The notes beneath the pieces were generated by a model. It made no database searches and had not been told where the DNA came from. It saw only the letters and a program-made list of their open reading frames with translations. The translations under genes were made by a program, and so were the position numbers. Positions 18,439-64,000 of a stretch of DNA of 64,000 nucleotides are shown here, piece by piece. Source of the DNA: Sphaerisporangium rufum (GTDB lineage: Bacteria; Actinomycetota; Actinomycetes; Streptosporangiales; Streptosporangiaceae); the NCBI RefSeq assembly GCF_016863395.1, contig NZ_BOOU01000024.1:1-64000 (forward strand). The letters are read 5' to 3'. The number at the start of each line of letters is the position of its first letter. Within the stretch, counting starts at the first letter, position 1.

Positions 18439-19131
18439 ATGCTCCGGACACTCCGTCTCCTGCTCCCGGTCTCCATGCTCATGGTGTTCGTCGGGCTGTT
18501 CGCCGCGCCGGCGCACGCGGCCACCTGGTCCTCCTCCGCCCAGTGGGGCACCTGGACCAACGGCGGCTACACCCTCTACAACAACATCTGGGGCGGCGGC
18601 GCCGGACCGCAGACCATCTGGGCGAACTCCTACAGCAACTGGGGAGTGTGGGCGAACCACCCCAACACCGGCGGGGTGAAGTCCTACCCCAACGCCACCA
18701 GGAACGTGAACCGGCGGATCAGCCAGCTGGGCAGCGCCAGCAGCAGCTTCAACGTCTCGGTGCCGAACGGCGGCGCCTACACCACCGCCTACGACATCTG
18801 GTGCGACGGGCACACCTACGAGATCATGCTGTGGATGAACAAGTACGGCCCGGTGGGGCCGATCGGCTCCCGGCAGACCAGCGCGTCGGTCGGCGGCCAC
18901 AACTGGGACGTCTACCGCGGCTCCAACGGCTCCAACCAGGTGTTCTCGTTCGTGCGGCAGGGCAACGTCAACTCCGGCACGGTGGACATCAAGGCCGTGC
19001 TGAACTGGCTACGCGGCAAGAACTGGTTCGGTGACGTCACCCTGGGCGACGTGCAGTTCGGGTACGAGATCACCTCCTCCGCCGGCGGCATGAACTTCAC
19101 CACCAACGGCTTCTCGGTGTCGGCGAGCTGA
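18439..19131 (+). CDS. Secreted GH12 endo-beta-glucanase (cellulase/xyloglucanase)
   Basis: Secreted family GH12 enzyme of 230 residues, hydrolysing beta-1,4-glucan or xyloglucan outside the cell. A Sec signal peptide (about 1-27, ending AAPAHA) precedes a beta-jelly-roll domain with the family start TLYNNIWG and WSY/NWG-type aromatic cleft residues. The nucleophile Glu is E128 (YEIMLWMN) and the acid/base Glu E210 (FGYEITSS). There is no carbohydrate-binding module. ATG 18439 has AGAAGGGA upstream. The palindromic operator just upstream suggests induction by cello-oligosaccharides. Confidence 0.93.
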   Translation: MLRTLRLLLPVSMLMVFVGLFAAPAHAATWSSSAQWGTWTNGGYTLYNNIWGGGAGPQTIWANSYSNWGVWANHPNTGGVKSYPNATRNVNRRISQLGSASSSFNVSVPNGGAYTTAYDIWCDGHTYEIMLWMNKYGPVGPIGSRQTSASVGGHNWDVYRGSNGSNQVFSFVRQGNVNSGTVDIKAVLNWLRGKNWFGDVTLGDVQFGYEITSSAGGMNFTTNGFSVSAS

Positions 19132-49845: not shown

Positions 49846-50162
49846 GCCTTTTCCACCTCCTGATGTGGTCCGGAATCAGCGGCAGATCGCCGGAGGGGAT
49901 CGGCTCTTGTCCCGGGGTCGGCTGCGGAACAACCTGCTGGTAACTGTAAATGACGATCTGGTTACCGTACGCCAGTTCTGGAAATCGGTCCCAACTCGAT
50001 CAGGAGTGCGATACGCATGTCGGCATATGCCTTCGCGAACCCGGCGAAACGGGCGGCCGGCGGCCGGTGCCGCCCCGGTCGTACCTCCGCCGGATCCGAC
50101 CCCACCGGGCCAGGCGGTGCCGGCCGAACGAAACCGGGGTGCGGGGGCGCGGGGCGGGTGGG
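49846..50162. promoter_or_regulatory. Divergent intergenic region
   Basis: About 317 bases between the XRE gene and the exporter leader. It contains an inverted repeat GGTAAC (49939-49944)/GTTACC (49961-49966) spaced by 16 bases, in an AT-richer stretch likely to include the XRE promoter. No gene seen. Confidence 0.4.
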
Positions 50163-50168
50163 TAGGGT
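50163..50168 (+). promoter_or_regulatory. -10 element before the exporter leader ORF
   Basis: TAGGGT, a common actinobacterial -10 sequence. The spacing of seven bases to ATG 50176 predicts that transcription begins at or next to this ATG. Confidence 0.5.
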
Positions 50169-50175
50169 GCGGGGC

Positions 50176-50241
50176 ATGTCGAGCCCTGAGGCGGACACGG
50201 TGGGGGCCCGCGGTCACGCCGCCGGCCCCCGGAACACCTGA
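50176..50241 (+). CDS. Candidate leader peptide of the Cmx-like exporter gene
   Basis: A 21-codon open frame (starting MSSPEADTVG) that would be translated from a leaderless transcript. Within it GGGGGCC (50202-50208) pairs with GGCCCCC (50224-50230), so a ribosome stalled on the ORF could change downstream folding. It ends 105 bases before the exporter. Leader peptides are known for related chloramphenicol exporters, but this one is a prediction. Confidence 0.4.
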   Translation: MSSPEADTVGARGHAAGPRNT

Positions 50242-50346
50242 GTTCGCCGTCCCGCCGCGCGTGCGGCCTGGACGGGCGTGGCCATGGGTGCCGGCCGCGA
50301 TGACGAGACGCCTTCCTCGTCCGTTTCATCGCCTCGGAGTCACTCG

Positions 50347-51561
50347 ATGCCGTTTCCCCTGTACCTGCTGGCCGTGGCGGTCTTCGCCATGGGCACCTCG
50401 GAGTTCATGCTCGCCGGCCTGCTGCCGGCCATCGCCGCCGACCTCGGCGTCCCGGTCGGCACGGCCGGCCTGCTCACCTCGGCCTTCGCGGCCGGGATGG
50501 TCGCCGGCGCCCCGCTGGCGGCCGCGCTGACCCGCCGCTGGCCCCGGCGGTCCAGCCTGCTCGGGTTCGTGCTGGCGTTCGCGGCGGCGCACCTCGTGGG
50601 CGCCGTCACCGGGAGTTTCCCGGTCCTGCTGGTGACCCGGGTGGTCGCGGCCGTCGCGAACGCCGGGTTCCTCGCGGTGGCGCTGACGACCGCCGCCGCC
50701 CTGGTCGCCGCCGACCGCAAGGGCCGCGCGCTCGCCGTGCTGCTGTCGGGCACCACGGTCGCGACCATCGCCGGGGTCCCCGGCGGGGCGGCGCTCGGCA
50801 CGCTGCTCGGTTGGCGGGCCGCCTTCTGGGCGGTGGCCGCGCTCTGCCTGCCCGCCGCGGCCGGCATCCTCGCCGGGATCCCGGCGCGCCGGGCCGCAGC
50901 GGACGGCGCGGACGGCGCCGGGCGCCCGGCCCTGCGTGCGGAGCTCGCGCAGCTCGCGAGGCCGCGGCTGGTCCTGGTGATGCTGCTCGGGGCCCTGGTG
51001 AACGCCGCGACCTTCGGCGGCTTCACCTTCCTGGCCCCCGTGGTGACGGGGACCGCGGGGCTGGCCGAGTGGTGGGTGCCGGTGGTGCTGATGCTCTTCG
51101 GCGGCGGCTCGCTGGCCGGGGTCACCGTCGCCGGCCGGCTGTCCGACCGGCGTCCCGGATCGGTGATCATGGTCGGCGGCCCGCTGCTGCTCGCCGGCTG
51201 GCCGGCGCTGGCCCTGCTGGCCGGCTTGCCGGCCGCGCTGCTCGTCCTGGTGTTCGTCCAAGGCACGCTGTCGTTCGCGCTGGGCGGCACGCTGATCGCC
51301 CGGGTCCTTTACGAGGCCGCGGACGCGCCGACCATGGCCGGCTCGTACGCGACGGCCGCGCTCAACGTCGGCGCCGCCGCCGGGCCGGTCGTCGCCGCGG
51401 CCACCTTGGACAGCGCGGCCGGTCCCGCCGGGCCGCTGTGGGCGAGCGGCGTCCTGGTCGCGATCGTCCTGCTCCTCGCGGTGCTCTTTCGCCGGGTGAT
51501 CTCGGCGACGCCGGCCCCCGCCCGGGTTATCCGTTCGGCGCCGGGAGCGCACCCGGGATAG
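50347..51561 (+). CDS. MFS drug exporter, Cmx/CmrA chloramphenicol-efflux type
   Basis: A 404-residue, 12-helix proton antiporter of the DHA1 family. The N-terminus MPFPLYLLAVAVFAMGTSEF and the segment LLTSAFAAGMVAGAPLAAAL closely follow the Cmx/CmrA/CmlR chloramphenicol exporters, with the motif GRALAVLLSGTTVATIAGVP (motif C-like) in helix 5. ATG 50347 is chosen from this match; in-frame starts at 50278 or 50284 would add a Ser-rich stretch. It is 10 bases before the ABC-F gene, forming a resistance pair. The true drug range is not shown. Confidence 0.88.
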   Translation: MPFPLYLLAVAVFAMGTSEFMLAGLLPAIAADLGVPVGTAGLLTSAFAAGMVAGAPLAAALTRRWPRRSSLLGFVLAFAAAHLVGAVTGSFPVLLVTRVVAAVANAGFLAVALTTAAALVAADRKGRALAVLLSGTTVATIAGVPGGAALGTLLGWRAAFWAVAALCLPAAAGILAGIPARRAAADGADGAGRPALRAELAQLARPRLVLVMLLGALVNAATFGGFTFLAPVVTGTAGLAEWWVPVVLMLFGGGSLAGVTVAGRLSDRRPGSVIMVGGPLLLAGWPALALLAGLPAALLVLVFVQGTLSFALGGTLIARVLYEAADAPTMAGSYATAALNVGAAAGPVVAAATLDSAAGPAGPLWASGVLVAIVLLLAVLFRRVISATPAPARVIRSAPGAHPG

Positions 51562-51571
51562 CGTTTGCGGC

Positions 51572-53218
51572 ATGAGTGCCACCATCGTCGCCAAGGACCT
51601 GGCCGCCGGGCACGGGGAGAAGGTGTTGTTCTCCGGGCTCGACCTGGTCGTCGGCCCGCAGGATGTGATCGGCCTGGTCGGGGTGAACGGCGCGGGCAAG
51701 TCCACCCTGCTGCGCCTGCTGGCCGGCCTGGCCGTGCCGGACGACGGCACGGTGCGGCTGACCCCGCCGGCGGCGACGGTCGGCTACCTGCCGCAGGAGC
51801 CGGAGCGCCGGCCCGGCGAGACGGTGGCCGATTACCTGGCCCGGCGCACCGGGGTGACCGCCGCGCAGCGCGAGCTGGACGCCGCGACCGAGGGGCTGGT
51901 GGCCGGCCGGCCCGGCGCCGACGACGACTACTCCACCGCGCTGGAGCGCTGGCTCGGCCTGGGCGGTGCCGACCTGGCCGAGCGGGCCGGCGAGGTGGCC
52001 GCCGACCTGGGCCTGGCGGTGGACCTGGCCCAGCCGATGACGTCGCTGTCCGGCGGCCAGGCGGCCCGGGCCGGGCTGGCCGCGCTGCTGCTCAGCCGGT
52101 ACGACGTCTTCCTGCTGGACGAGCCCACCAACGACCTCGACCTGGACGGGCTGGACCGCCTGGAGCGGTTCGTCACCGGGCTGCGCGCCGGCACCGTGCT
52201 GGTGAGCCACGACCGCGAGTTCCTGGCCCGCACGATCACCAGCGTGGTCGAGCTCGACCTGGCCCAGCGGCAGGTGCGGGTGCACGGCGGCGGCTACGAC
52301 TCCTACCTGGCCGAGCGGGAGGTCGCCCGCCGGCACGCCCGCGAGGAGTACGAGGAGTACGCCGACCGGCTGGGCGACCTGCGGGCCCGGGCGCGCACCC
52401 AGCGGGCGTGGATGGAGAAGGGCGTGAAGAACGCCCGGCGCAAGGCCCCGGACAACGACAAGATCGGCCGGAAGTTCCGCACCGAGGCGACCGAGAAGCA
52501 GGCGGCCAAGGCCCGGCAGACCGAGCGCATGATCGAGCGGCTGGATGTGGTCGAGGAGCCCCGCAAGGAGTGGGAGCTGCGGATGGAGATCGCCGCCGCG
52601 CCGCGGGCCGGGGCGGTCGTGGCCACCGCGCGCGGCGCGGTGGTGCGGCGCGGCCCGTTCGTGCTGGGCCCGGTCGACCTGCAGATCGGCTGGGCCGAGC
52701 GGGTGGCGATCACCGGCGACAACGGTTCGGGCAAGTCGACGCTGCTGGCCACGCTGCTCGGCCGGCTGGCCCCGGACGAGGGGCACGCCGCGCTCGGCCC
52801 GGGCGTGGTGGTCGGCGAGATCGACCAGGCGCGCGGCCGGTTCCTCGGCGAGGAGCCGCTGCTGGACGCGTTCGGCGCCGCGGCGCCCGGCCTGATGCCC
52901 GCCGACGTGCGCACGCTGCTCGCCAAGTTCGGGCTGCGGGCCGATCATGTGCTGCGCGCGGCGGTCACCCTCTCGCCGGGGGAGCGCACCCGGGCCGCGC
53001 TGGCGCTGCTGCAGGCGAGCGGGGTCAACCTGCTGGTCCTCGACGAGCCCACCAACCACCTCGACCTGCCCGCGATCGAGCAGCTGGAGTCGGCCCTCGA
53101 CACCTACCCGGGGACGCTGCTGCTCGTCACGCACGACCGGCGGATGCTGGCCGCGGTGCGCACTACCCGCCACCTGCGGGTCGCCGCCGGCCAGGTGACG
53201 GAGGACGTGCCGGCCTGA
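51572..53218 (+). CDS. ABC-F family ATP-binding protein
   Basis: A 548-residue protein with two ABC ATPase domains and no membrane segments, which acts on ribosomes. Walker A motifs are GVNGAGKSTLL and GDNGSGKSTLL; signatures are LSGGQAARAGL and LSPGERTRAAL; Walker B motifs are FLLDEPTNDLDL and LVLDEPTNHLDL. The linker between domains (about 240-330) is charged and coiled. Members either protect ribosomes from antibiotics (TlrC/OleB-like) or regulate translation. Its pairing with the exporter favours resistance. Confidence 0.9.
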   Translation: MSATIVAKDLAAGHGEKVLFSGLDLVVGPQDVIGLVGVNGAGKSTLLRLLAGLAVPDDGTVRLTPPAATVGYLPQEPERRPGETVADYLARRTGVTAAQRELDAATEGLVAGRPGADDDYSTALERWLGLGGADLAERAGEVAADLGLAVDLAQPMTSLSGGQAARAGLAALLLSRYDVFLLDEPTNDLDLDGLDRLERFVTGLRAGTVLVSHDREFLARTITSVVELDLAQRQVRVHGGGYDSYLAEREVARRHAREEYEEYADRLGDLRARARTQRAWMEKGVKNARRKAPDNDKIGRKFRTEATEKQAAKARQTERMIERLDVVEEPRKEWELRMEIAAAPRAGAVVATARGAVVRRGPFVLGPVDLQIGWAERVAITGDNGSGKSTLLATLLGRLAPDEGHAALGPGVVVGEIDQARGRFLGEEPLLDAFGAAAPGLMPADVRTLLAKFGLRADHVLRAAVTLSPGERTRAALALLQASGVNLLVLDEPTNHLDLPAIEQLESALDTYPGTLLLVTHDRRMLAAVRTTRHLRVAAGQVTEDVPA

Positions 53219-53587
53219 CCCCGGGGCCGGCCGCCTGCCGGCCCCGCTTGCCCTGCCACCTGCCCGGCCTCACTTGCCCGGCCCCGCCTGCCCTGCCACC
53301 TGCCCCGCCCCGGCTGCCCCGCCCCGGCAGTCGGTACTCTCGGCGATCTTGACGTCACCGACAGTGATTTTTCGGGTTTTTGGTGGCCGATTCAGCATTT
53401 TCTGCGGCGGCGATCCCGGCTTTCCCCGGTTCTTGCCGACTTTCTGTGATGTCCGAATCCCCGGGAACGGATCTCATATTGGGCTGCGTTGTGAAGGCAG
53501 GAAATGTAGTGGACTAAAGAGAAGCGAACCCGCAGGATCGTTCCACACCATGTACGGCCCTTTTGGTGCGAGAGGGTGGTGCCCCCC
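53219..53587. other. Intergenic region with a CCTGCC-rich direct repeat, then AT-richer promoter-like DNA
   Basis: Bases 53245-53330 contain two related copies of a segment with CTTGCC/CCTGCC and CCACCTGCCC. Bases 53350-53520 are AT-richer than average and probably carry the promoter of the next four-gene unit. No gene seen. Confidence 0.45.
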
Positions 53588-54355
53588 ATGAAGATCACTC
53601 GCAATCCCGGTTTACCCCCGCCGATCGTCCGCGGCCTGGCCGGCCTCGCCGCCGCCCGAGCCGGCCGCCGGGACGGCCGGCTCGGCGTCCCCTACGACCG
53701 GCTGCCGGCCGGGGCGTCCCCGGGCGGGCCGGCCGACGACCGGCGGACCGACTACATCACGTCCGTGGCCGAGCAGGCCCGCGAGCGCCGGCTGCGCGTC
53801 CGCAAACGGTTCATCGGCGAGGCCGGCCGGCAGGAGAGCGCGCTGCTGCAGGCGGCCGGCCTGGTCAACGACCTCGCCCGCCGGGCGGCGGCCACCGACC
53901 CGGCGCCGGCCGGCCCCGGGAACCCGCCGGGCACCCCGGAGCCGCGATCGCTGGCCGAGGTGACCGCCGCCCGGGCCCGCCGGACCGCCGCCGACCGGCG
54001 ACGGTCCGCCGAGACCGAGCTGGCCACCGCCCGGCAGGCGCTGGCCGGCCGGCTGGCCGACTACGCGGGCGCGGTCCGCCGGATGCGCGCCGAGGCCGAG
54101 GAGGTGAACAGCTGGGCCGGGCAGCTGGTGGCCCGCTACCGCCGGTCGCTGGACCACGCCTACCTGACCCGCCAGAGCACGCCGGGCACGTCCTTACCTC
54201 GCTGGGAACCGGCCCCCATCCGGGCCGACTCCGAGGAGGAGCGGCTGGCCCTGTCCGGTGACCTGCTCACCCTGCTGCCGCCGAAGGTGCGCGAAGTGAT
54301 CGACGAGGCGCTCGGTCACCTCGGCCGCCCGATCCCCGAAGGAGGTGCCGGGTGA
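53588..54355 (+). CDS. Hypothetical coiled-coil protein
   Basis: A 255-residue soluble protein I do not recognise. Residues about 60-110 and 125-205 are Arg/Ala/Glu-rich heptad-like helices likely to form a coiled coil. The N-terminus (NPGLPPPIVRGLAGLAAARA) could be a membrane-associated helix. The end reads LLPPKVREVIDEALGHLG. ATG 53588 is used; GTG codons at 53576/53579 are alternatives. It overlaps the lipoprotein gene by 4 bases, so they form an operon. Confidence 0.65.
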   Translation: MKITRNPGLPPPIVRGLAGLAAARAGRRDGRLGVPYDRLPAGASPGGPADDRRTDYITSVAEQARERRLRVRKRFIGEAGRQESALLQAAGLVNDLARRAAATDPAPAGPGNPPGTPEPRSLAEVTAARARRTAADRRRSAETELATARQALAGRLADYAGAVRRMRAEAEEVNSWAGQLVARYRRSLDHAYLTRQSTPGTSLPRWEPAPIRADSEEERLALSGDLLTLLPPKVREVIDEALGHLGRPIPEGGAG

Positions 54356-55092
54356 GAGCCTTCCGCACGGTCGTCCTGCTGCTCCCGGTGGTACTGGTGC
54401 TGCTGGCGGCGGTCACCCTGCTCGCCGGCTGCCAGGCGTCCCCGCCGCCGCCGGCCGCGGCCCGCCCGTGCGGCATGGCCGTCGACGCCACCTCCTTCAG
54501 CCGCAACACCGACGTGCAGCGGAAGATCGACGAGGCGGTGCCGCGGTTCCTGGCCGAATGCGACCAGGTGGCATTCGGCGTGGTCAACGGCTCGCCCGGC
54601 GCCACCGACTGCCGGCAGGCCCCGCTGGACCTGGTCGCCGGTCCGAAGGACAACCCCAACGACAATCCCAAGCGCGCCGCGCAGGTCGAGGCGGGCCGCC
54701 GGGGCACCGCGATCGCGGCCATGAAGCGACTGCTGGCCTGTTCCCGGGCCGAAAAGCAGCTCCGCCCCGGCTCCGACGTCATCGGCGCCGTCCGCTACCT
54801 GACCGACCAGCTCGGCGCGCTGGAACGTTCCGGCCGGCTGCTCGTCCTCAGCGACCTGGGGCAGCGCACCCCCGAACTCGACGTCTACCACGACGACCTC
54901 AGCACCCCCGACCGGCGCGCCCGGTACGTCGACCGGGTGGCCGACCGGCTGCCGAAACTGGCCGGCGCCCGGATCCAGGTCGTCGGGTTCGGCATCCACC
55001 TCACCGGCGACCCGGCCCGCCGGCAGCACATCCAGGAGTTCTGGACCCTGCTCTTCGACCGCTGCGGCGCGCTCGCCGTCACCTACACCTAG
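54352..55092 (+). CDS. Putative lipoprotein with vWA-like features
   Basis: A 246-residue exported protein. A hydrophobic signal (about 5-25) ends in lipobox LLAGC. The mature part starts with CGMAVDATSFS, resembling the first strand and degenerate metal-site of von Willebrand A domains, followed by GSDVIGAVRYLTDQL and RLLVLSDLGQRTPEL in the order expected for that fold. The canonical D-x-S-x-S is not exactly present. GTG 54352 overlaps the preceding stop (GTGA). Confidence 0.65.
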   Translation: MRAFRTVVLLLPVVLVLLAAVTLLAGCQASPPPPAAARPCGMAVDATSFSRNTDVQRKIDEAVPRFLAECDQVAFGVVNGSPGATDCRQAPLDLVAGPKDNPNDNPKRAAQVEAGRRGTAIAAMKRLLACSRAEKQLRPGSDVIGAVRYLTDQLGALERSGRLLVLSDLGQRTPELDVYHDDLSTPDRRARYVDRVADRLPKLAGARIQVVGFGIHLTGDPARRQHIQEFWTLLFDRCGALAVTYT

Positions 55093-55122
55093 CCTCGCCG
55101 ACCTTTCCGGAAGGAGAACCCG

Positions 55123-56409
55123 ATGGGCAGGAACCAGCGGCGCGCCCTGTGGTGGCGCCTCAAGCCCTACCTCGGCGACCGGGGCGACGCCGCGCTCGAC
55201 CTGGAACTGGACATGGAGGAGGACCCCTACGGCGGCCCGATCCCCGGTGGGCCGCCGCCGGCCAAGGAGCTGAAACGGCTGCGCGCCGAGGCCCGGCGCA
55301 ACGGGGAGCGGGACGGCGGATCCGGCATGTACGACGAGTGGAGCCTGGCCGCCGGCAGCCGCCCGCCGTTCCTGGTGACCCTGGAGGCCATGCGGAACGA
55401 GGCCGTCGCGGAGGAGAAGGTGCGCGAGCTGCGCGACCTGCAGCGCCTGGAGGACCGGATCGCGGTCACCCGGCAGGACCTGCAGACCTGCGAGGAACGG
55501 GCCGCCCGTACCCGGGCGGAGCTGGACCAGGTCGCCGCCGACGAGCGGCGGCTGCAGGAGGCGCTCGGCGGGGTGCGCGCCGCGGCGGCATCGGACGGCG
55601 CGCCGCGCCCAGAGGAGCCGCCGCACCCGGCGGCGCGGTGGGCCGAGCCCACCCGGAGCCTGCGCCGGCAGGCGCTGGTCCGGGCGGCGCGCTGGGCGGT
55701 GCTCGCGCTGTTCGCCGCGGTGGAACTGCCGATCCAGTACGCGACGTTCATCTACTTCAACGAGGGCCCCACGATGACCTGGGCGTTCGTGCTGGGCACC
55801 GCGGCCGCCATGCTGATCGCGCCGCACCTGGCCGGCGGCTGGACCAAGCACATGAGCGTGATGGGATGGCGGTCCCCGCGGCTGCCCGCCGCGGCGACCG
55901 TGCTAGTGGCCTGGCTCGCCGGGGTGGGCCTGCTCGCCCACCTGCGCACCTCGGTGCTCTTCGCGCCGGGCACCGATTCGGAGACCGGCGCCGCGATCAG
56001 GTCGACGGCGGACGCGCTCGGCGTCGGCCGGGTGCCGGTGACGATCCTGTTCACCGCGCTGCTGCTGCTCGGCGGCACGGTCACCTTCACCTTCGGCTTC
56101 CTCGGCGAGAACCCTTACGCCGCGCGGCTGGGCGACATCCAGCGGCAGCGCCGCCGGCTGGAGAAGGCGCTCGCCGCGCTGGAGGGCCGCAGGAAGCGGG
56201 ACGCGGACCTGGTCAGCCTGGCCGAGCAGCGGACCAGGCGGCACGGCGAGCGCTGGGCGGCCCGCATCGCGGCCCGGGGCGAGCCGTACGAGGTCTGCGT
56301 GGCCGACTACCTGGAGGCGGTCGCGCAGCGGATGCGCAACCCCGCGTTCACCGAGTCGGTGGGCCAGTGGCTGCAGGAACGCGCCAGGGCCCGGCAACCG
56401 GCCGGGTGA
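55123..56409 (+). CDS. Hypothetical membrane protein with coiled coil and four helices
   Basis: A 428-residue protein. Residues 95-155 form a coiled coil (EERAARTRAELDQVAADERR). Four predicted membrane helices follow at about 183-207, 212-234, 250-272 and 302-327, then a charged C-terminal helix. ATG 55123 has GGAAGGAGAA upstream, 30 bases after the lipoprotein gene. Unknown family; probably the membrane platform of this cassette. Confidence 0.65.
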   Translation: MGRNQRRALWWRLKPYLGDRGDAALDLELDMEEDPYGGPIPGGPPPAKELKRLRAEARRNGERDGGSGMYDEWSLAAGSRPPFLVTLEAMRNEAVAEEKVRELRDLQRLEDRIAVTRQDLQTCEERAARTRAELDQVAADERRLQEALGGVRAAAASDGAPRPEEPPHPAARWAEPTRSLRRQALVRAARWAVLALFAAVELPIQYATFIYFNEGPTMTWAFVLGTAAAMLIAPHLAGGWTKHMSVMGWRSPRLPAAATVLVAWLAGVGLLAHLRTSVLFAPGTDSETGAAIRSTADALGVGRVPVTILFTALLLLGGTVTFTFGFLGENPYAARLGDIQRQRRRLEKALAALEGRRKRDADLVSLAEQRTRRHGERWAARIAARGEPYEVCVADYLEAVAQRMRNPAFTESVGQWLQERARARQPAG

Positions 56410-56448
56410 CGGCGGATCGACCGGCCGGCCCGAGCCGGCGCGCACATC

Positions 56449-57165
56449 ATGGGAGGGCTGATGGACGGCGTCCGGCCGTGCCTGGCCATGCTGGGACTGG
56501 GACTGATCATCGCCGGTGTCTTCGCCCGCACCGCGACGATCATGAAAGTGGTGGAGGTGCGGCCGGTCGACTGGCCGACCCGGGCCGGGCTGGCCGCCGC
56601 CGGTGTGGTGATCGTCCTGGTGATGCTGGCGCTGGACGGCTCCGGCCGCCGGGCGCCGCTGCGCCGCCTGACCGGCATGCTGGTCGGCAGCCTGCTCACG
56701 CTGGGGGTGGCCACCCTGGCGGGAGTGATCGCCTTCCCGGCCCTGCCGGCGCGGGCCCAGCGGCCGCTGCCCGCCGGCAGCTGGCACGGCCGGCTCGCCC
56801 ACTCGGCGGGCGGCCGGGCGGACGTCAGGCTGACCGTCTCGGCCGGCGGGCCGCACACCACCGCCACCGGCCGGTTGACGCTGTCCTACAACGGCGCGGG
56901 CTGCGAGTACTGGCTCGACGGCGAATCGGTGCGCCAGGTGATGAAGGCGGCGGAGAACAACACGCCCCAGGAGGAGCGGATCTGCGGCGGCGTGACCGAC
57001 CTGCGGCTGGACCCCTACCCGGACGGAAAGGACGTGTGGATCACCCTCACCGGGCGGGCCTGCGCGGTGGTGGCCCAGGGGGCGCTGGCCCGCCAAGGCC
57101 TGCCGGCGGTCGAGGGCGCCCGCCCGCCGGACTCCACGCTGGACGGCCGCACCTGCCCGGCCTGA
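56449..57165 (+). CDS. Hypothetical membrane protein with exported domain
   Basis: A 238-residue protein with three hydrophobic helices (about 8-28, 45-65 and 75-100) and an outside domain of about 130 residues. The domain contains three Cys (CEYWL, RICGGVTDL, GRACAVV) that could form a disulfide, with beta-rich sequence. ATG 56449 after TGGGAGGG-like spacing is approximate. Fourth gene of the cassette; function unknown. Confidence 0.6.
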   Translation: MGGLMDGVRPCLAMLGLGLIIAGVFARTATIMKVVEVRPVDWPTRAGLAAAGVVIVLVMLALDGSGRRAPLRRLTGMLVGSLLTLGVATLAGVIAFPALPARAQRPLPAGSWHGRLAHSAGGRADVRLTVSAGGPHTTATGRLTLSYNGAGCEYWLDGESVRQVMKAAENNTPQEERICGGVTDLRLDPYPDGKDVWITLTGRACAVVAQGALARQGLPAVEGARPPDSTLDGRTCPA

Positions 57166-57394
57166 GCGCGAGTGCGGCCACCCGATCCCCGCCGGCCCGC
57201 TCGCGCGCCGCACCCGGCCGGCCTGAGCGCGAATCCCGGCCGCCCGGTGCCGCCGTGGCTCCGGGATTTCGCGACCGGCCGCAAAGTCGGGTGAACCGGT
57301 CGCCCGCCCCGCGCGTACCTGCTGGCACGAACCGCCGGCGGGCGGGCCGGCCGTCCGGCCCGCCGCCCGCCGGCCCGGCCTCGCCAGGGGAGGG

Positions 57395-58393
57395 GTGCGC
57401 GTGCCCGTGCGCAGCGTCCGGAAGAGAGTCGTTCCGGCGGTCGCCGGGCTGGCCGCCGCCATGGTGCTGGTCGCGCAGCAGGGCGCGGCCGCCGAGCCGC
57501 GCCCCACCGCCGCGCAGGCCCGCGCCCGGCTGGCCAAGCTGGAGGACCAGGCCGACAAGACGGTCGAGCGGTACAACACCGTGGCCGAACGCTACAAGGG
57601 GGCGAAAAAACGGTACGACGCGCTGGACCGGGAGCTGTCCCGCGAGCGCGGCAAGGTCGACACGCTGCGCGCCGACATCGGCTCGACCGCCGCGCACCTC
57701 TACCAGTCCAACGGGGTGACCACCGGCCTGCCCGGCATGCTCAGCTGGCAGGACCCATCCGGCGTGCTCGCCGGCCTGGCCGTCGCCGACCAGATGTCGG
57801 CGGGCCAGGCGAACGCCATGGCCGCGTTCGAGGCGGCCACCCGCGGCCTGCGCGCCCGGCACGCCAAGGCCAAGGCGGCCTACGACGACGTGGCCGAGCT
57901 GCTCGGCGACGTCGGCGACGAACGCAAGCGGGTGGAGAAGCTCGTCGGCGAGCAGGAGCGCCTGCTGCGCCGGCTCAACCAGTTCAACGCCGGCGACCCC
58001 AACAGCCGCGGCATCAGGTACGACGGCCCGGCGTCCGGCAACGCCCGCACCGCGCTCACCTTCGCCTTCGCGCAGGCCGGCAAGCCCTACCGCTACGGCG
58101 CCACCGGCCCGGGCGCCTACGACTGCTCGGGTTTCGCCCAGGCGGCGTGGGCGAAGGCCGGGGTGAAGCTGCCGCGCACCACCTACCAGCAGTGGGCGTG
58201 GGGCGCCAAACGCCGGGTACCGATGGACAAGCTCCAGCCGGGTGACCTGATCTTCAGCAACGGCCTCGGCCACATGGGCATCTACGCCGGAAACGGCAAG
58301 ATGATCCACGCCCCGCGCACCGGGGACGTCGTCAAGGTGGTGACCCTGGCCTCCTACGGGCGGGGCCGCTTCGTCGGCGCCGTCCGTCCCTGA
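57395..58393 (+). CDS. Secreted NlpC/P60 peptidoglycan endopeptidase
   Basis: A 332-residue cell-wall hydrolase. A signal peptide (about 1-33) leads to a coiled-coil N-domain (about 35-200) as in RipA-type hydrolases, then an NlpC/P60 domain (about 213-332). The catalytic triad residues are C244 (YDCSGFAQAAW), H293 (GLGHMGIYAG) and H305 (MIHAPRTGD). It cuts D-Glu/meso-Dap bonds in stem peptides. The coiled coil usually blocks the active site until activation. GTG 57395 is used, with GGGGAGGGG just upstream. Confidence 0.93.
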   Translation: MRVPVRSVRKRVVPAVAGLAAAMVLVAQQGAAAEPRPTAAQARARLAKLEDQADKTVERYNTVAERYKGAKKRYDALDRELSRERGKVDTLRADIGSTAAHLYQSNGVTTGLPGMLSWQDPSGVLAGLAVADQMSAGQANAMAAFEAATRGLRARHAKAKAAYDDVAELLGDVGDERKRVEKLVGEQERLLRRLNQFNAGDPNSRGIRYDGPASGNARTALTFAFAQAGKPYRYGATGPGAYDCSGFAQAAWAKAGVKLPRTTYQQWAWGAKRRVPMDKLQPGDLIFSNGLGHMGIYAGNGKMIHAPRTGDVVKVVTLASYGRGRFVGAVRP

Positions 58394-58481
58394 TCTCGGG
58401 CGTCGCCCCCCCGGCGCCCGATGGCGCCCGGCCGTCGTCCGGCCCTCTGGCGCGGAGGGCCGGCCGGCGGCCCGGGCCGCC

Positions 58482-58578
58482 GGCCACCGTTCCGCGCGGC
58501 CACCGTTCCGCGCGGCCACCGTTCCGCGCGGCCACCGTTCCGCGCGGCCGCCGTTCGGCGCCGGCCATCGTTCCGCAG
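58482..58578. repeat. 16-bp tandem repeat
   Basis: Four perfect head-to-tail units of GGCCACCGTTCCGCGC (58482-58545), followed by two degenerate units to 58578. It lies between the convergent NlpC/P60 and kinase genes. Confidence 0.95.
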
Positions 58579-58685
58579 CGCGCCGGCCCGGTCGTCGCGC
58601 GGTCTGTCGCTCGCGCTCAGCGGGCGGTCTCCGTCCAGCGAGCGGCCTCCCGCCGTCGCGGGGCCGCCGGGGGGCGTGATTCCGG

Positions 58686-60872
58686 TCAGCGCGGGCCGCC
58701 GGCCAGCGGCGGCACCGCGTTGCGCGCCATCTCCAGCGCCCGGTCCGGCCACCACTGGCCGGCCTGCGGGGTGACGAACCCGTACACCGGATCGGCCGGG
58801 CCGGCGGTGCCGCGGGTGCACTGCCCGTTGGAGAACCCGGGGCTGTTCAGCCACAGGAACGCGTCGGCCGCCGGGTCGCCGGTGCCGGTGGTCGGCCGCG
58901 GCCCGGCGCCGCGCCCGGGCGGGTTGCACCACTCGTCGGGTGACGGGAACCGCCCCTTGGGCGGCGTCCACTCCCCGGCGCCGTTGCGGCTGGTGTCCAC
59001 CACGAAATGCGGCAGGCCGGGCGCGTCCCCGTGCACGGCGGCGATCTCCTCGGGGGCGCAGCCCGTCTCGGGCACCCCCGCCTTCAGGTACAGGCAGCGG
59101 GCCAGCGCCCGGCCGTGCGCCAGCGATCTCTGGGTGTCGCGGTGGGCGGTCATGTTGAGATGGAACCCGTCGGCCCGGCGCAACCCCGCGGCCAGCAGCC
59201 GGTCGGCGATCTCGTCGAGCTCCGGCCAGCCCGCCAGGCCGCCGTCGAGGTAGACGGCCGTGCGGCGCAGGCCGGCCAGCGCCGACACGGCGGTGGACAG
59301 GTCGGCGTACCGGCGCCTGGCCGCCTCCTCGCCGCCCTTGGGGCACTCGGCGGTGCCGGGCGGCCGGGACAGGCTGTTCGGTTCCAGCACGACGACGGCC
59401 GGGCGGTCGCCGATGCCGCGGGCCACCCCCTCGATCCAGGCGCGGTAGGCGCCGCTGTCCGGCGCGCCGCCGTTCCAGCAGTCCCGGCCGGGGATGTGGT
59501 TGGTGACGAAGACCGGCACCTGGTGCCGCGCGGCGGCCTCGGTGGTCGCCTCCCTGGCCCGGCGGGCCATGTCGTCCGGCGAGCCGCCGTCCAGCCACAT
59601 GGCCTGCGGCACCGCGGCCAGCGACCGCATCAGCGCCGCGTCGGCCGGCCGGCCCTGCGCCGTCCAGGTGTCGGCCTGGCGGGCGGCGTCGGTGCCGGGC
59701 TGCACGTAGAAGCGCACGTTGCGGGCCCGCAACGGGTTGGCCCGCCCGTCGCGGATCGGGAAGGGCCGCCCCGTCGGGGCGGGGGTGCCGGTCGTGCCGG
59801 TGTCCGGTGCCAGCGGGGCTCGCCCGGCCGCCTCGGCGGGCACGCCGGGCAGGATGGGCAGCTCGGCCAGGCCGGCGCGGGTGGCGGCGACGGTCCCCGC
59901 GGTGATCAGCACGGCCAGCGCGGTGCCCGCCCCGGCCCAGCGCAGCCGGTGTGCCCGGCGGCGCGGGGCCGGCGGGGCGGCGGGCGGCGCCGGGTCGGCC
60001 GGCGCGGTGGGGGCGTTGGGCTCGGGCACCCCGGCCCGGGTGGCCAGCGCGTCCACCAGTTCGGCCGGGGTCGGCCGGCTCGCCGGGTCCTTGTCCAGCG
60101 CCCGGACGACCAGCTCGCCGAGCACGCCGTCCAGCGGCGGCAGCTCCGGCGGGTCGTGCACCACCCGGTACAGCACCTCGTGGCCGGCGCCGGTGCCGAA
60201 CGGCGGCCGGCCGCAGGCGGCGAAGACCACCACGCCCGCCCAGGAGAAGACGTCGGAGGCCGGGGTGATCGTCAGGCCGCGCACCCGCTCGGGCGACATG
60301 TAGGCGGGCGTCCCCATGATGGTGACCGAGTGGGTCGCGCCGTCCGGCAGCGAGGCGAGACCGAAGTCGATCACCTTGGGCCCGACCGGGGAGAGCAGCA
60401 CGTTCGACGGTTTGAGGTCGCGGTGGATCACCTCGGCGGCGTGCACGGCCCGCAGCGCGGTCGCCATGCTCATCGCGAGCCCGTCCAGCGCGGACCCCGA
60501 CAGCGGGCCCTCCCGGTGCACCTTCTCCAGCAGCGTGGGCCCGGGGACGTACTCGGTGACCAGGTAGGCCAGCTCGCCGTCCACGTCGGCGTCCAGCACC
60601 GGCGCGGTGGAGAACCGGGCGACCCGGCGGGTCGCCGCGACCTCCCGGCGGAACCGCCGCCGGAAATCGGGGTCGCTCGCCAGGTGCCGGTGGATGACCT
60701 TGATCGCCACCTGCCGGCGGGACCGTCCCTCGGCCAGGTAGACGACGCCCATGCCGCCCTCGCCCAGCCGGCGCAGGATCCGGTACCCGCCGACCTCCCA
60801 GGGGCCGCCGTCACCAGGTGCGTGACCCGGTGACCCGGCCTGTCCGCTGCCGCGCTTCAATAGCCCGCCCAC
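58686..60872 (-). CDS. Receptor-type Ser/Thr kinase with extracellular GH6 (cellulase-like) pseudo-enzyme domain
   Basis: A 728-residue single-pass kinase. Residues 30-280 are a Pkn-type kinase with GEGGMGVVYLA, K58 (VAIKVIH), HRDLKPSN (D152), DFG (D169) and SPE, so it should be active. Residues 311-333 are one membrane helix. Residues 378-725 match a glycoside hydrolase 6 domain (RFYVQPGTDAARQA, HIPGRDCWNGG, VVDTSRNG, GQWWPDRALEMARNA). However, the catalytic acid in the family motif L-E-P-D is Asn (N499, VLEPNSLS), the family P-G-E-S-D-G is PGFSNG (678-683), and D-A-G-H is DGGL. D464 in the first motif is kept. The outside domain is therefore predicted to bind, not cut, a beta-glucan. GTG 60872 is the start; the ribosome site is weak. 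Confidence 0.88.
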   Translation of the reverse strand: MGGLLKRGSGQAGSPGHAPGDGGPWEVGGYRILRRLGEGGMGVVYLAEGRSRRQVAIKVIHRHLASDPDFRRRFRREVAATRRVARFSTAPVLDADVDGELAYLVTEYVPGPTLLEKVHREGPLSGSALDGLAMSMATALRAVHAAEVIHRDLKPSNVLLSPVGPKVIDFGLASLPDGATHSVTIMGTPAYMSPERVRGLTITPASDVFSWAGVVVFAACGRPPFGTGAGHEVLYRVVHDPPELPPLDGVLGELVVRALDKDPASRPTPAELVDALATRAGVPEPNAPTAPADPAPPAAPPAPRRRAHRLRWAGAGTALAVLITAGTVAATRAGLAELPILPGVPAEAAGRAPLAPDTGTTGTPAPTGRPFPIRDGRANPLRARNVRFYVQPGTDAARQADTWTAQGRPADAALMRSLAAVPQAMWLDGGSPDDMARRAREATTEAAARHQVPVFVTNHIPGRDCWNGGAPDSGAYRAWIEGVARGIGDRPAVVVLEPNSLSRPPGTAECPKGGEEAARRRYADLSTAVSALAGLRRTAVYLDGGLAGWPELDEIADRLLAAGLRRADGFHLNMTAHRDTQRSLAHGRALARCLYLKAGVPETGCAPEEIAAVHGDAPGLPHFVVDTSRNGAGEWTPPKGRFPSPDEWCNPPGRGAGPRPTTGTGDPAADAFLWLNSPGFSNGQCTRGTAGPADPVYGFVTPQAGQWWPDRALEMARNAVPPLAGGPR

Positions 60873-60971
60873 CTGTGCTAGATGCCGGACCCGCCCGCAA
60901 ACGATCGTATCCGGACGAACGCCGCGAGGGGCCTGAATCTCACCATCGCCGGCGGGGGGGTGTTGCCTGAT

Positions 60972-61007
60972 TTACTCGGACGAGGTAATTTTTACCCATG
61001 CGAGTAA
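60972..61007. promoter_or_regulatory. Tandem TetR operator palindromes over the start codon
   Basis: Two near-palindromes with the same half-sites: TTACTCGGACGAGGTAA (60972-60988) and TTACCCATGCGAGTAA (60992-61007). The ATG of the TetR gene lies inside the second. This indicates autorepression. Confidence 0.65.
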
Positions 61008-61618
61008 CTGACGGGGGTCGCCGGAGCACCCTCACCGGCGAGGCCCGGCGGGCGCAGATCGTCGCGGCCGCCATCGACACCATCGCCGAGCTCGGTTACC
61101 GGCAGGCGAGCTTCGCCCGCATCGCCGAGCGGGCCGGCCTCAGCAGCACCCGGCTCATCTCGTACCACTTCGCCGGCAAGGACGAACTGATGCGCCAGGT
61201 CGTCCTCGCGGTCGTCGGCGACATCGGCCGGCACGTCACCGAGCGCCTGCGCCGGGAGCCCACCGCCGCGGGGGCGCTGCGGGCCTACATCCGGGCGGTG
61301 ATCGGCTACAACGCGGACAACCGGCCGCGGATGGCCGCGCTGATGGAGATCTTCCTCAACCACCGCGACGAGAGCGGCGAGGGCTCCTACGACGCCGGTG
61401 ACGACGCCGACGTGCTCAACGGGGTCGAGGAGATCCTGCGCCGCGGGCAGCGCGCGGGGGAGTTCCGCGCGTTCGACACCAGGGTGATGGCCTTCGCGAT
61501 CCAGCGGTCGCTGGACGGCCTGCCGTTCCTGCTCCAGGCCGAGCCCGGCCGGGACATCGGCGCCTACGCCGAGGAACTGGTCACCACGTTCGACCTGGCC
61601 ACCAGGGCCGAGCCATGA
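60998..61618 (+). CDS. TetR-family transcriptional regulator
   Basis: A 206-residue repressor. The N-terminal HTH is at about 18-62 (AAIDTIAELGYRQASFARIA, then SSTRLISYHFAGKDEL). The C-terminal ligand domain is of the type found near drug- or lipid-related membrane proteins. It overlaps the next membrane protein gene by 4 bases (ATGA), so it probably controls that gene and itself through the palindromes at its start. Divergent from the kinase gene. Confidence 0.92.
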   Translation: MRVTDGGRRSTLTGEARRAQIVAAAIDTIAELGYRQASFARIAERAGLSSTRLISYHFAGKDELMRQVVLAVVGDIGRHVTERLRREPTAAGALRAYIRAVIGYNADNRPRMAALMEIFLNHRDESGEGSYDAGDDADVLNGVEEILRRGQRAGEFRAFDTRVMAFAIQRSLDGLPFLLQAEPGRDIGAYAEELVTTFDLATRAEP

Positions 61619-62274
61619 CTCGCCGGCGGCGGCACCGGTTGCTGCTGCTGGTCGACCTGGCCGGGCCGATCGCCCTGTACTACCTGCTGCGGCTGGCCGG
61701 CCAGGACGTGCACGCGGCGGCGCTGATCAGCTCGCTGGTGCCCGGGCTCGACCTGGTCACCGCGCTGGTCCGCCGCCGGCGGCCGGAAGCGGTGGCCGTC
61801 TTCATGACCGTGATGATGCTCGGCAGCGCCCTGGTGTCCCTGCTGAACGGCGACCCCCGCTTCGTGCTGGCCAAGGAGGGCTGGCTCACCGGCGTCACCG
61901 GCCTGTGGATGCTGGCCAGCGCCTGGAGCCGGCAACCGCTGACCGTGCCGTTCACCCGCCTGCTGCTGGAGGGCCGGATCGGCCCCGGGCGGCCGCGCTG
62001 GGAGGTCATGTGGGAGCTGCCGCGCTTCCGCCGGATCTGGCGGGTCTGCACGGTGCTGTGGGGCATCGGGCTGCTGGCCGACGCGGCGGTGCGGGTCGTC
62101 ATGGCCTACACCCTGCCGCTGGACACCGTGCCCGGCCTGACCGCCGCGCAGTACGTGGTGTTCGTGCTGCTCATGCAGGTCGTCATGAACGTCTACCTGG
62201 TGCCCTCCGGCGTCTACAACCAGTGGTCCCGCCTGTACGAGCCGCTCCGCGCCCGGCAGCGGGCCGGCGGCTGA
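61615..62274 (+). CDS. VC0807-like integral membrane protein
   Basis: A 219-residue membrane protein with about five hydrophobic helices (for example LLLLVDLAGPIALYYLL, AVAVFMTVMMLGSALVSLL). It resembles the VC0807/intracellular-septation-related family of unknown function. It is translationally coupled to the TetR gene and is its likely target. Confidence 0.75.
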   Translation: MTRRRRHRLLLLVDLAGPIALYYLLRLAGQDVHAAALISSLVPGLDLVTALVRRRRPEAVAVFMTVMMLGSALVSLLNGDPRFVLAKEGWLTGVTGLWMLASAWSRQPLTVPFTRLLLEGRIGPGRPRWEVMWELPRFRRIWRVCTVLWGIGLLADAAVRVVMAYTLPLDTVPGLTAAQYVVFVLLMQVVMNVYLVPSGVYNQWSRLYEPLRARQRAGG

Positions 62275-62299
62275 ACCCGCCCTGATCCTTGAGCCGCTC

Positions 62300-62450
62300 C
62301 GTTCCCCGAACCTGCCGTGCCTCCGAACCTGCCCTGAGCCCTGAACCTGCCGTGCCTCTGAACCCGTCCTGAACCCCGAACCTGTCGTGACCCGAACCCG
62401 CCCTGGACCCCGAACCTGCCGTGACCCCGAAGCCGCCTGAGCCTGGAGCG
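62300..62450. repeat. Degenerate repeat, CCGAACCTGCCGTG-type
   Basis: About five imperfect copies of a unit close to CCGAACCTGCCGTGNC between the two membrane protein genes. In the opposite direction it reads GGTTCGGGG repeats. No gene seen here. Confidence 0.7.
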
Positions 62451-62528
62451 GCCCGAAGCCGCCGGGCCACCCTGATCCGTTCGCCGGCCCCAGGGCCGAT
62501 CCGCAAGCCCACCCGTAAGGAGACACCC

Positions 62529-62978
62529 ATGTCCGCCACCACCTCCCCGCCGCGCACCCCGGCGGCCACCCGGCGCGGGGCCCGCGCCCTGGCCGTGGCC
62601 GGCGCGGCCGCCGCCGCGCTCGCCATCTGGGCCGTCGCGGTCGTCGCCGGCGTCCGGCTGGACGTCCACCAGAACGGCGCCGTCACGGAGGTCGGCCCGG
62701 CGGCCGTCGCCGGGGTGGCGCTGGCCGCCGGCCTGGCCGGCTGGGCGGCACTCGCCATCCTGGACCGGACGGCCCCCCGGCGGGCCCGCACCGTCTGGAC
62801 CGCGCTGGCCGGCATCGTGCTGGTGCTCTCGCTGGCCGGCCCGGTCACCGCCGCCGCGACCCCGGCCGCCATGGTCGTGCTGCTCGCCCTGCACCTGGCG
62901 GTCGGCGCGGTGCTGATCTTCCTGCTCCCCGCCCGCCGGCGCCCCGGCCGGGGTGAAGTACCCGCCCGGACCGAGTAG
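62529..62978 (+). CDS. DUF6069-like small membrane protein
   Basis: A 149-residue protein with four hydrophobic helices and charged ends. The spacing of helices and the VRLDVHQNGAVTEVGP loop between helices 1 and 2 resemble actinobacterial DUF6069 proteins, of unknown role. ATG 62529 has AAGGAGA at good spacing; a longer frame upstream runs through the repeat and is rejected. Confidence 0.75.
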   Translation: MSATTSPPRTPAATRRGARALAVAGAAAAALAIWAVAVVAGVRLDVHQNGAVTEVGPAAVAGVALAAGLAGWAALAILDRTAPRRARTVWTALAGIVLVLSLAGPVTAAATPAAMVVLLALHLAVGAVLIFLLPARRRPGRGEVPARTE

Positions 62979-63022
62979 CCGTACTCAGGCGCCGGAGGCG
63001 GCCGGCGCCGCACCATCGATCC

Positions 63023-63313
63023 ATGAGCCGTCCCATACACAACACCATGACCGGCGCCTACTACGCGCAGTGCGTCCTGTCCTTCGGGCTCTCGCTGGTG
63101 AGCGTGGTCCTCGGCATCGCCTACCTCCCGGTCGGCCCCTGGGTGCGCGCCTTTCTCGCCGTGGCGGTCCTCTACACGGTGACCTCGGCCTTCGTGCTGG
63201 CCAAGTGCGTGCGCGACCGGCAGGAGGTCACCACCATGTCCAGCCGCGTCGACCAGGCGCGGCTGGACCGCCTGCTCTCCGAGCACGACCCCTTCAAGGT
63301 CGACACCCCCTGA
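63023..63313 (+). CDS. YiaA/YiaB-type two-helix inner membrane protein
   Basis: A 96-residue protein with two hydrophobic helices (VLSFGLSLVSVVLGIAYL and FLAVAVLYTVTSAFVLA) and a charged cytoplasmic tail. It fits the YiaAB two-helix domain. Function unknown. 44 bases after the previous gene. Confidence 0.7.
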   Translation: MSRPIHNTMTGAYYAQCVLSFGLSLVSVVLGIAYLPVGPWVRAFLAVAVLYTVTSAFVLAKCVRDRQEVTTMSSRVDQARLDRLLSEHDPFKVDTP

Positions 63314-63482
63314 CGGCGGCCGCCGTCCCGGCGGCCCGGTCAGGACGCCGGGACGGGTCGCGCCCCGTCCAGAACCGCTCGTACGCGGTGCCGTCCGGGC
63401 CGGCCGCCACGACCGGGCCGAGCGGGACCCTCACCCCGGCCCCGCCGGGATCTCGGCCATGGCCGCCGCGCGGCGGAGGCCG

Positions 63483-64000
63483 TCAGGCGTCATCCAGGCC
63501 GCGCTCGATCGCGTACCTGGTCAGCTCCACCCGGTTGTGCAGGCGCAGCTTGGTGAGGGTGTTCTGCACGTGGTTCTGCACGGTGCGGTGCGACAGCACC
63601 AGCCGCTCGGCGATCTGCTTGTACGACAGGCCCTTGGCCACCAGCCGGAGCACCTCGGTCTCCCGCTCGGTCAGCCGGGGGCCGTCGTCCGGCGCGGCCC
63701 GGCCGGCCAGCCGGCGGTACTCGCCGAGCACCAGCCCGGCCAGGCCGGGGGTGAACACCGGGTCGCCGCCGGCCGTCCGCCGCACCGCGTCCAGGAACTC
63801 CGCCCGGCCCGCCGACTTCACCAGGTAACCGGAGGCGCCGGCCTTGACCGCCTCCAGCACATCGTCCTGCTCGGCGCTCGCCGACAGCACCAGCACCCGC
63901 GGCGGGTCCGGCAGGGCGGCCAGCCCGCGGGCCACCTCGGCGCCCGGCAGGTCGGGTAGCCGCAGGTCCAGCACCACGACGTCCGGACGGACGGCCGCCG
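63483..64000 (-). CDS. NarL/FixJ-type response regulator (5' end outside window)
   Basis: At least 172 residues of a two-component response regulator; the start lies beyond base 64000. The receiver domain shows the phospho-acceptor region VVVLDLRLPDLPG and the conserved Lys in YLVKSAGRAEF. The C-terminal LuxR-type HTH reads LTERETEVLRLVAKGLSYKQ, then RTVQNHVQNTLTKL. Its histidine kinase is probably encoded just upstream, outside the window. Confidence 0.92.
   Translation of the reverse strand, partial: AAVRPDVVVLDLRLPDLPGAEVARGLAALPDPPRVLVLSASAEQDDVLEAVKAGASGYLVKSAGRAEFLDAVRRTAGGDPVFTPGLAGLVLGEYRRLAGRAAPDDGPRLTERETEVLRLVAKGLSYKQIAERLVLSHRTVQNHVQNTLTKLRLHNRVELTRYAIERGLDDA

Follow-up and report, generated by a model that had tools for sequence, protein, structure and literature searches.

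The gene at positions 58686..60872 of the stretch analyzed here raises the question of what a cellulase-type domain does on a membrane kinase, i.e. whether it still cuts glucan or has become the outer, sensing part of a receptor. The stretch, referred to as the window, comprises 64,000 nucleotides of Sphaerisporangium rufum (contig NZ_BOOU01000024.1, positions 1 to 64,000). An earlier inspection of the letters and translations, made without database searches (the sequence-only reading), had proposed a Ser/Thr kinase with a catalytically dead GH6 domain as its outside sensor.

Gene and domain organization

The gene lies on the minus strand, starts with GTG, and encodes a protein of 728 amino acids with the order kinase, putative membrane helix, pseudo-GH6 domain (ORF and translation, Pfam); its coordinates had been given correctly before, with the strand left unstated. 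Pfam and a check of the residues agree with the earlier description of a single protein that joins an intact Pkn kinase (K58, D152, D169), one putative membrane helix and a GH6 domain. The Ser/Thr protein kinase domain comprises residues 30-273 (60054..60785, minus strand; Pfam PF00069, E 6.6e-39), and the features of a Hanks-type kinase are all present (Gly-rich loop, catalytic Lys, HRD, DFG and APE-type motifs). No PASTA repeat was matched in the window protein by Pfam at E up to 1, and the scores against the NCBIfam models for PknB-like/PASTA kinases (NF033483; 193 of 450 bits) and for AfsK (NF053615; 212 of 1300 bits) are far under the full-length cut-offs.

A single hydrophobic, putatively membrane-spanning stretch was found by sequence inspection at residues ~312-331 (59880..59939, minus strand), with an Arg cluster on its kinase side (304-311); a proline-rich linker also lies between the kinase and the GH6 domain. 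The latter comprises residues 402-689 by Pfam (58806..59669, minus strand; PF01341, Glyco_hydro_6, E 2.1e-49, 169 bits against a cut-off of 27), with the aligned domain extending over residues 379-728, and a search within the window's own genome places it at the same spot. The solved GH6 chain 6fao also matches this part (E 7.1e-40), and the protein is a member of GH6 in sequence and fold by both the profile and the solved GH6 chains.

Active site of the GH6 domain

The window protein reads LEPN (ending at residue 499), YLDGGL (ending at 546) and PGFSNG (ending at 683), and the three changes that had been noticed in the sequence, LEPD to LEPN, DAGH to DGGL and PGESDG to PGFSNG, are present as described. 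In the alignment to solved GH6 chains, supplemented by column counts, the general acid (T. fusca Cel6A Asp117, T. reesei D221) corresponds to N499 (codon 59376..59378, minus strand), and Asp265 (T. reesei D401) corresponds to N682 (codon 58827..58829, minus strand). Two further contacts of the -1/-2 sugars are replaced, Lys259 by N676 and Glu263 by F680, as are Tyr73 of the -1 site by N458 and His159 by Leu (T. fusca numbering); in addition, the loop of the active site is shortened by three residues and has lost its Ser. For T. fusca positions 156, 159, 162, 231, 259, 263 and 265, the pairing with T. reesei numbers and the labels are in part putative. The window protein hence lacks the acid Asp, the Lys, Glu and Asp of the -1/-2 site and the Tyr of the -1 site, by which an active GH6 enzyme is recognized, and the list of three altered sites in the sequence-only reading, right as far as it went, was incomplete by N458, N676, F680 and the shortened loop without its Ser.

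In T. reesei, D221 is the acid and D175 is the putative base, acting through a water wire; the attacking water is placed by S181 and the backbone of D401, and K395, E399 and D401 hold the -1/-2 sugars through their side chains, that of D401 as a -1 contact (PMC6091422). The residue at 682 had been taken for the candidate base, which is a mislabeling, since the equivalent of the favored base (T. reesei D175, T. fusca D79) is kept in the window protein as D464. D156 (T. fusca numbering) is kept as well.

Distribution of kinase-GH6 genes

The GH6 part of the window protein was used as query against 341 Streptosporangiaceae genomes (E 1e-40 or better), which yielded 104 matches, spread over 87 genomes and 14 genera; because the dead domain served as query, this comparison set leans to its kin. 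Of the matched loci, 102 of the 104 were read (window included): 85 are of the kinase type and 17 are standalone GH6 genes, the latter with one per genome, in two genera, and 47-51% identical. The 85 rows of the kinase type consist of the window, 83 others whose frame includes a kinase, and one that is cut by a contig end (L153); the search for the architecture that had been suggested returned 83 further in-frame cases. With the two unread matches counted, kinase-type GH6 genes are found in 70 of the 341 genomes and in 12 of 68 genera (85 of 87 genes read), and the in-frame kinase was observed in 68 of the 70 carrier genomes. Among the named orthologues (10 Nonomuraea and two Sphaerisporangium loci), 11 of 12 have both domains in one frame, and the twelfth is a partial match. 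Within the window's genus group (11 genomes, S. fuscum and S. melleum among them) the type is carried by 3/11 genomes, and its distribution there is therefore patchy.

In a small sample of the class (394 genomes), 10 genomes from outside the family passed the E 1e-40 threshold, and all 10 matches were standalone; an order-level search of four further genomes gave zero new matches. From the best matches listed in a separate search with the GH6 profile, 20 with long frames were read, together with four GH6 loci of the window's own genome, and all are without a kinase (24/24), although a kinase on an intact GH6 may occur beyond the matches listed; the acid pattern is unmatched in many of these 24 frames, and the acid residue is not readable from it there. 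Seven of the 70 carriers show no second GH6 among the matches listed in this search (G093, G179, G216, G219, G222, G328 and G329; G179 and G329 are incomplete assemblies), and this is the one point that the GH6 counts yield, because at most six candidates were scored per genome and the genomes of carriers tend to be larger.

Each of five loci (L074, L077, L080, L081 and L082) has a closely spaced pair of kinase-GH6 genes on the same strand, which indicates local duplications in the family, and in several Nonomuraea genomes there are two members that belong to different clades. At L077, the two full genes are accompanied by a frame of 206 amino acids (L077_54) that gives a partial pseudo-GH6 match without a kinase and is perhaps a remnant. 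The plasmid collection contained 12 matching records. One record in this collection, of 11.85 Mb, is from Nonomuraea gerenzanensis (NZ_LT559118.1) and contains a 44% identical GH6 match at 3226198-3227205 with no listed gene.

Conservation in fusions and standalone enzymes

The standalone set against which the 85 fusion rows were compared comprised 35 rows: 17 of the family, eight of the window's genus group with one gene represented twice, and 10 of other families in the class. The acid Asp (D117) is found in 2/85 fusions and in 35/35 standalone rows; the corresponding counts are 11/85 and 34/34 for D265, 0/85 and 34/34 for K259, 5/85 and 34/34 for E263, 2/85 and 32/35 for H159, and 5/85 and 34/35 for Y73. 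The loop is below standalone length in 80/85 fusions (by three residues in 74), and its Ser is found in 13/85 fusions versus 35/35 standalone rows. D79 is kept in 58/85 fusions versus 35/35, and D156, W231 and N573 are kept in 85/85 fusions, as is W648; W549 is Trp or Tyr in 84/85. The -2 platform, Trp41, persists in no more than 38/85 fusions and is otherwise mostly Arg (33) or Asn (12).

Out of 350 columns, nine are conserved in the standalone enzymes and lost in the fusions (Y73, D117, H159, K259, E263, D265, 575, 576 and 432); six of these are active-site positions, and 575 and 576 adjoin N573. Another 34 columns are invariant in both sets. The loss of residues is selective and is confined largely to the active site, and the earlier claim of a GH6 framework kept with selective catalytic loss is borne out across 12 genera. 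In the window's clade, position 682 is Asn in 14/14 rows (42/85 overall), whereas position 499 is Ser in the other 13 rows; of the two Asn residues whose conservation had been proposed as a check, N682 is thus conserved within the clade, and at 499 it is the loss of Asp that is conserved, with 2/85 rows keeping it. These two are L135_30, with the acid Asp and Asn at 682, and L083_68, in which the acid and the D265 position are both Asp. The latter is the single row of 85 with the literal pattern that the sequence-only reading had named as evidence against itself, and it is not a restored enzyme, since the equivalents of D79, Y73, H159, K259 and E263 are missing.

A GH6 part that still hydrolyzes a glycan, slowly or otherwise, in what would be a membrane-bound enzyme-kinase, is very improbable in view of the loss of the acid Asp in 83/85 rows, of Lys259 in 85/85, and of Glu263 and Tyr73 in 80/85 each, with the loop Ser absent from 72/85 and the full catalytic set kept in 0/85. 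The points in its favor are D464 (the base) and D543 in the window protein, the two Asp residues of L083_68, and the observation that GH6 mutants of D79 retain some activity (PMC6091422); with D79 and D156 kept in the window protein, residual trace hydrolysis is conceivable. Overall, the domain presumably lacks hydrolytic activity.

Kinase part, membrane topology and selection

The key residues of the kinase are intact in 83/83 aligned rows (L089 left out). By script, a hydrophobic stretch between the domains is found in 82/83 members (window not counted), with an excess of Lys/Arg on the kinase side in 80/82, and six Cys, presumably paired in disulfides, are invariant in 85/85 GH6 parts. The orientation that fits these data would be kinase inside and GH6 outside, with disulfides. 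In L089 the N-terminal half of the kinase is out of frame and L150 is without the membrane helix; these are assembly errors or real damage.

For 14 pairs of fusions, dN/dS (NG86, which is rough for GC-rich genes) was 0.12-0.57 in the GH6 part (median 0.28) and 0.10-0.49 in the kinase part (median 0.13), and for four pairs of standalone GH6 it was 0.13-0.30. The dead GH6 domain is under purifying selection. A decaying, functionless GH6 part on a protein of which only the kinase matters is accordingly a reading that was already disfavored and that we give hardly any weight: the lost catalytic residues, the frame of L089 and the missing helix of L150 would suit it, but its GH6 ratios are near those of standalone enzymes, 34 columns and all six Cys are held invariant, and the type persists across 12 genera, several genomes having additional copies.

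Origin of the fusion

The kinase type occupies one side of one branch in a 116-row tree (SH-aLRT 100), and it is still one group when the trait columns are masked (SH-aLRT 98), in trees that are quick searches with several long branches and a midpoint root for drawing. The nearest standalone rows are the 17 canonical enzymes from two genera of the same family; their joining branch has an SH-aLRT of only 88, and their status as 'sister' is therefore not firm. On the masked tree the acid state requires three changes, which fits one loss and two returns. From the one grouping and the three changes, a single origin of the kinase-GH6 fusions, though not proven, would be the simplest reading.

Neighboring genes

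The gene neighborhoods of 79 loci were compared (seven others dropped out because the GC filter of the comparison missed the gene), with positions 50000-64000 for the window and ~9.5 kb on each side for the others where the contig allowed. None of the neighbor families that occur in at least six of these loci includes the window, the kinase gene itself aside, and no glucan-related gene was found among the conserved neighbors of the 79 loci. In the second Nonomuraea clade, a GNAT-like enzyme is encoded nearby in 28 loci (including two of another genus), a putative MFS transporter in 23 and a putative response regulator in 20, labels that represent a reading of the sequences.

The kinase gene of the window is faced by a gene for an NlpC/P60 wall hydrolase (57395-58393, plus strand; E 1.5e-24). 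S. fuscum (L067) has an NlpC/P60 gene in the same place (72% identical), and a second window neighbor is matched there at 87%; among the 11 clade loci compared, this is the one in which either neighbor is matched. This neighbor bears on an alternative in which the pseudo-GH6 part binds a protein or anchors the receptor in the wall, with the fold as a scaffold and a protein or another envelope polymer as ligand. We regard this as unlikely. The adjoining wall hydrolase in the window and in S. fuscum would suit it, as would the loss of all main -1/-2 contacts and the change of Trp41 to Arg or Asn (33 and 12 of 85 rows); it is opposed by the occurrence of that neighbor in just one of 11 clade loci, and by W648, N573 and D543 in 85/85 rows and Trp or Tyr at W549 in 84/85.

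A secreted GH12 glucanase had also been noticed in the window. The gene exists (18439-19131, plus strand; a small GH12 with a signal-like N-terminus), and the genome holds a second GH12 gene. The one in the window lies ~40 kb from the kinase-GH6 gene with no link found, and was rejected as evidence for a partner.

Proposed function and ligand

The explanation that we prefer, and that we hold to be rather probable from the sequence comparisons, is a family of single-pass receptor kinases that was made once from a secreted GH6 and that probably binds a beta-glucan-like chain without cutting it. In a Streptosporangiaceae ancestor, and most likely a single time, a secreted GH6 beta-1,4-glucanase would have become fused to the outer end of a membrane-bound PknB-like kinase. 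The acid, the contacts to the -1/-2 sugars and the catalytic loop would then have disappeared from the joined domain, with its framework, its cysteines and the Trp of the plus side staying in place. With the minus-side contacts gone, W648 kept in every row and W549 as Trp or Tyr in 84/85 rows, a glucan chain end or an oligosaccharide could presumably still rest on the plus side and would be ungripped, undistorted and uncut on the minus side. At the cell surface, the pseudo-GH6 part would thus most likely bind such a chain end or oligosaccharide and leave it uncut. For receptor kinases of this class the usual model is induced pairing, and one may conjecture that binding alters the pairing of the kinase domains and thereby the phosphorylation of cytoplasmic targets, with carbon use or wall remodeling as the output.

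Beta-1,4-glucan as the ligand is a conjecture from the conserved aromatic positions. One common ligand is doubtful and subclades may differ, since Trp41 is kept in only 38/85 fusions. Similarly, a coupling to the cell's own GH6 cellulases would not be general, because 7/70 carriers show no other GH6 match, and for the same reason the sensing of glucan of the cell's own envelope is as plausible as that of plant cellulose. A bolder version, which we offer tentatively and consider possible rather than probable, would be a diversified set of glycan receptor kinases of single origin, derived from a dead cellulase, whose pockets have been re-cut in each subclade for different glucans, possibly the beta-glucan of the organism's own hyphae or envelope rather than plant cellulose, and which couple the outer state of the glycan to phosphorylation inside.

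To our knowledge, many bacterial receptor kinases have no known ligand; here the outer domain belongs to GH6, a family with a well-studied sugar cleft, so that the kind of ligand can be proposed and directly tested. With the fusions in one group, canonical standalone relatives on neighboring branches, and a loss that is largely confined to the active site, the family would represent a clear example of an enzyme that became a receptor.

Comparison with known systems

By sequence, the protein is a Hanks-type kinase and a member of GH6 without the GH6 catalytic residues. It has the same kind of kinase domain as the PknB-like/PASTA kinases and AfsK, but is without PASTA repeats and has another outer domain; similarly, it has the same GH6 domain by sequence as T. 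fusca Cel6A (1tml), M. tuberculosis Cel6 (1up0), 6fao and the 17 standalone relatives, but the secreted standalone enzymes, unlike the fusions, have canonical catalytic residues in a kinase-free frame. The earlier statement that no bacterial kinase with a GH6 pseudo-enzyme sensor had been described agrees with the open-licence PMC full text, in which no paper on a kinase-GH6 protein was found. In two surveys of prokaryotic kinase architecture (PMC2877116, PMC1262709) the terms glycosyl hydrolase, glycoside hydrolase, cellulase and glucanase are absent from the main text by word look-up.

Two systems of other lineages are comparable. The tobacco chitinase-related receptor-like kinase CHRK1 likewise has a glycoside-hydrolase outer domain that lacks a catalytic residue (PMC10573068); it differs as a plant protein with a class V chitinase instead of GH6 and a kinase of another lineage, and common descent is not claimed. 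The anti-sigma factor RsgI6 of Clostridium thermocellum is likewise a membrane protein, with an outer GH10 domain of very low activity that is a polysaccharide-binding sensor (PMC4711584), but signals through an anti-sigma domain instead of a kinase and carries GH10 instead of GH6. By analogy, the kinase-GH6 protein may work like CHRK1 and RsgI6-GH10, with a disabled hydrolase as outer sensor, but it belongs to neither.
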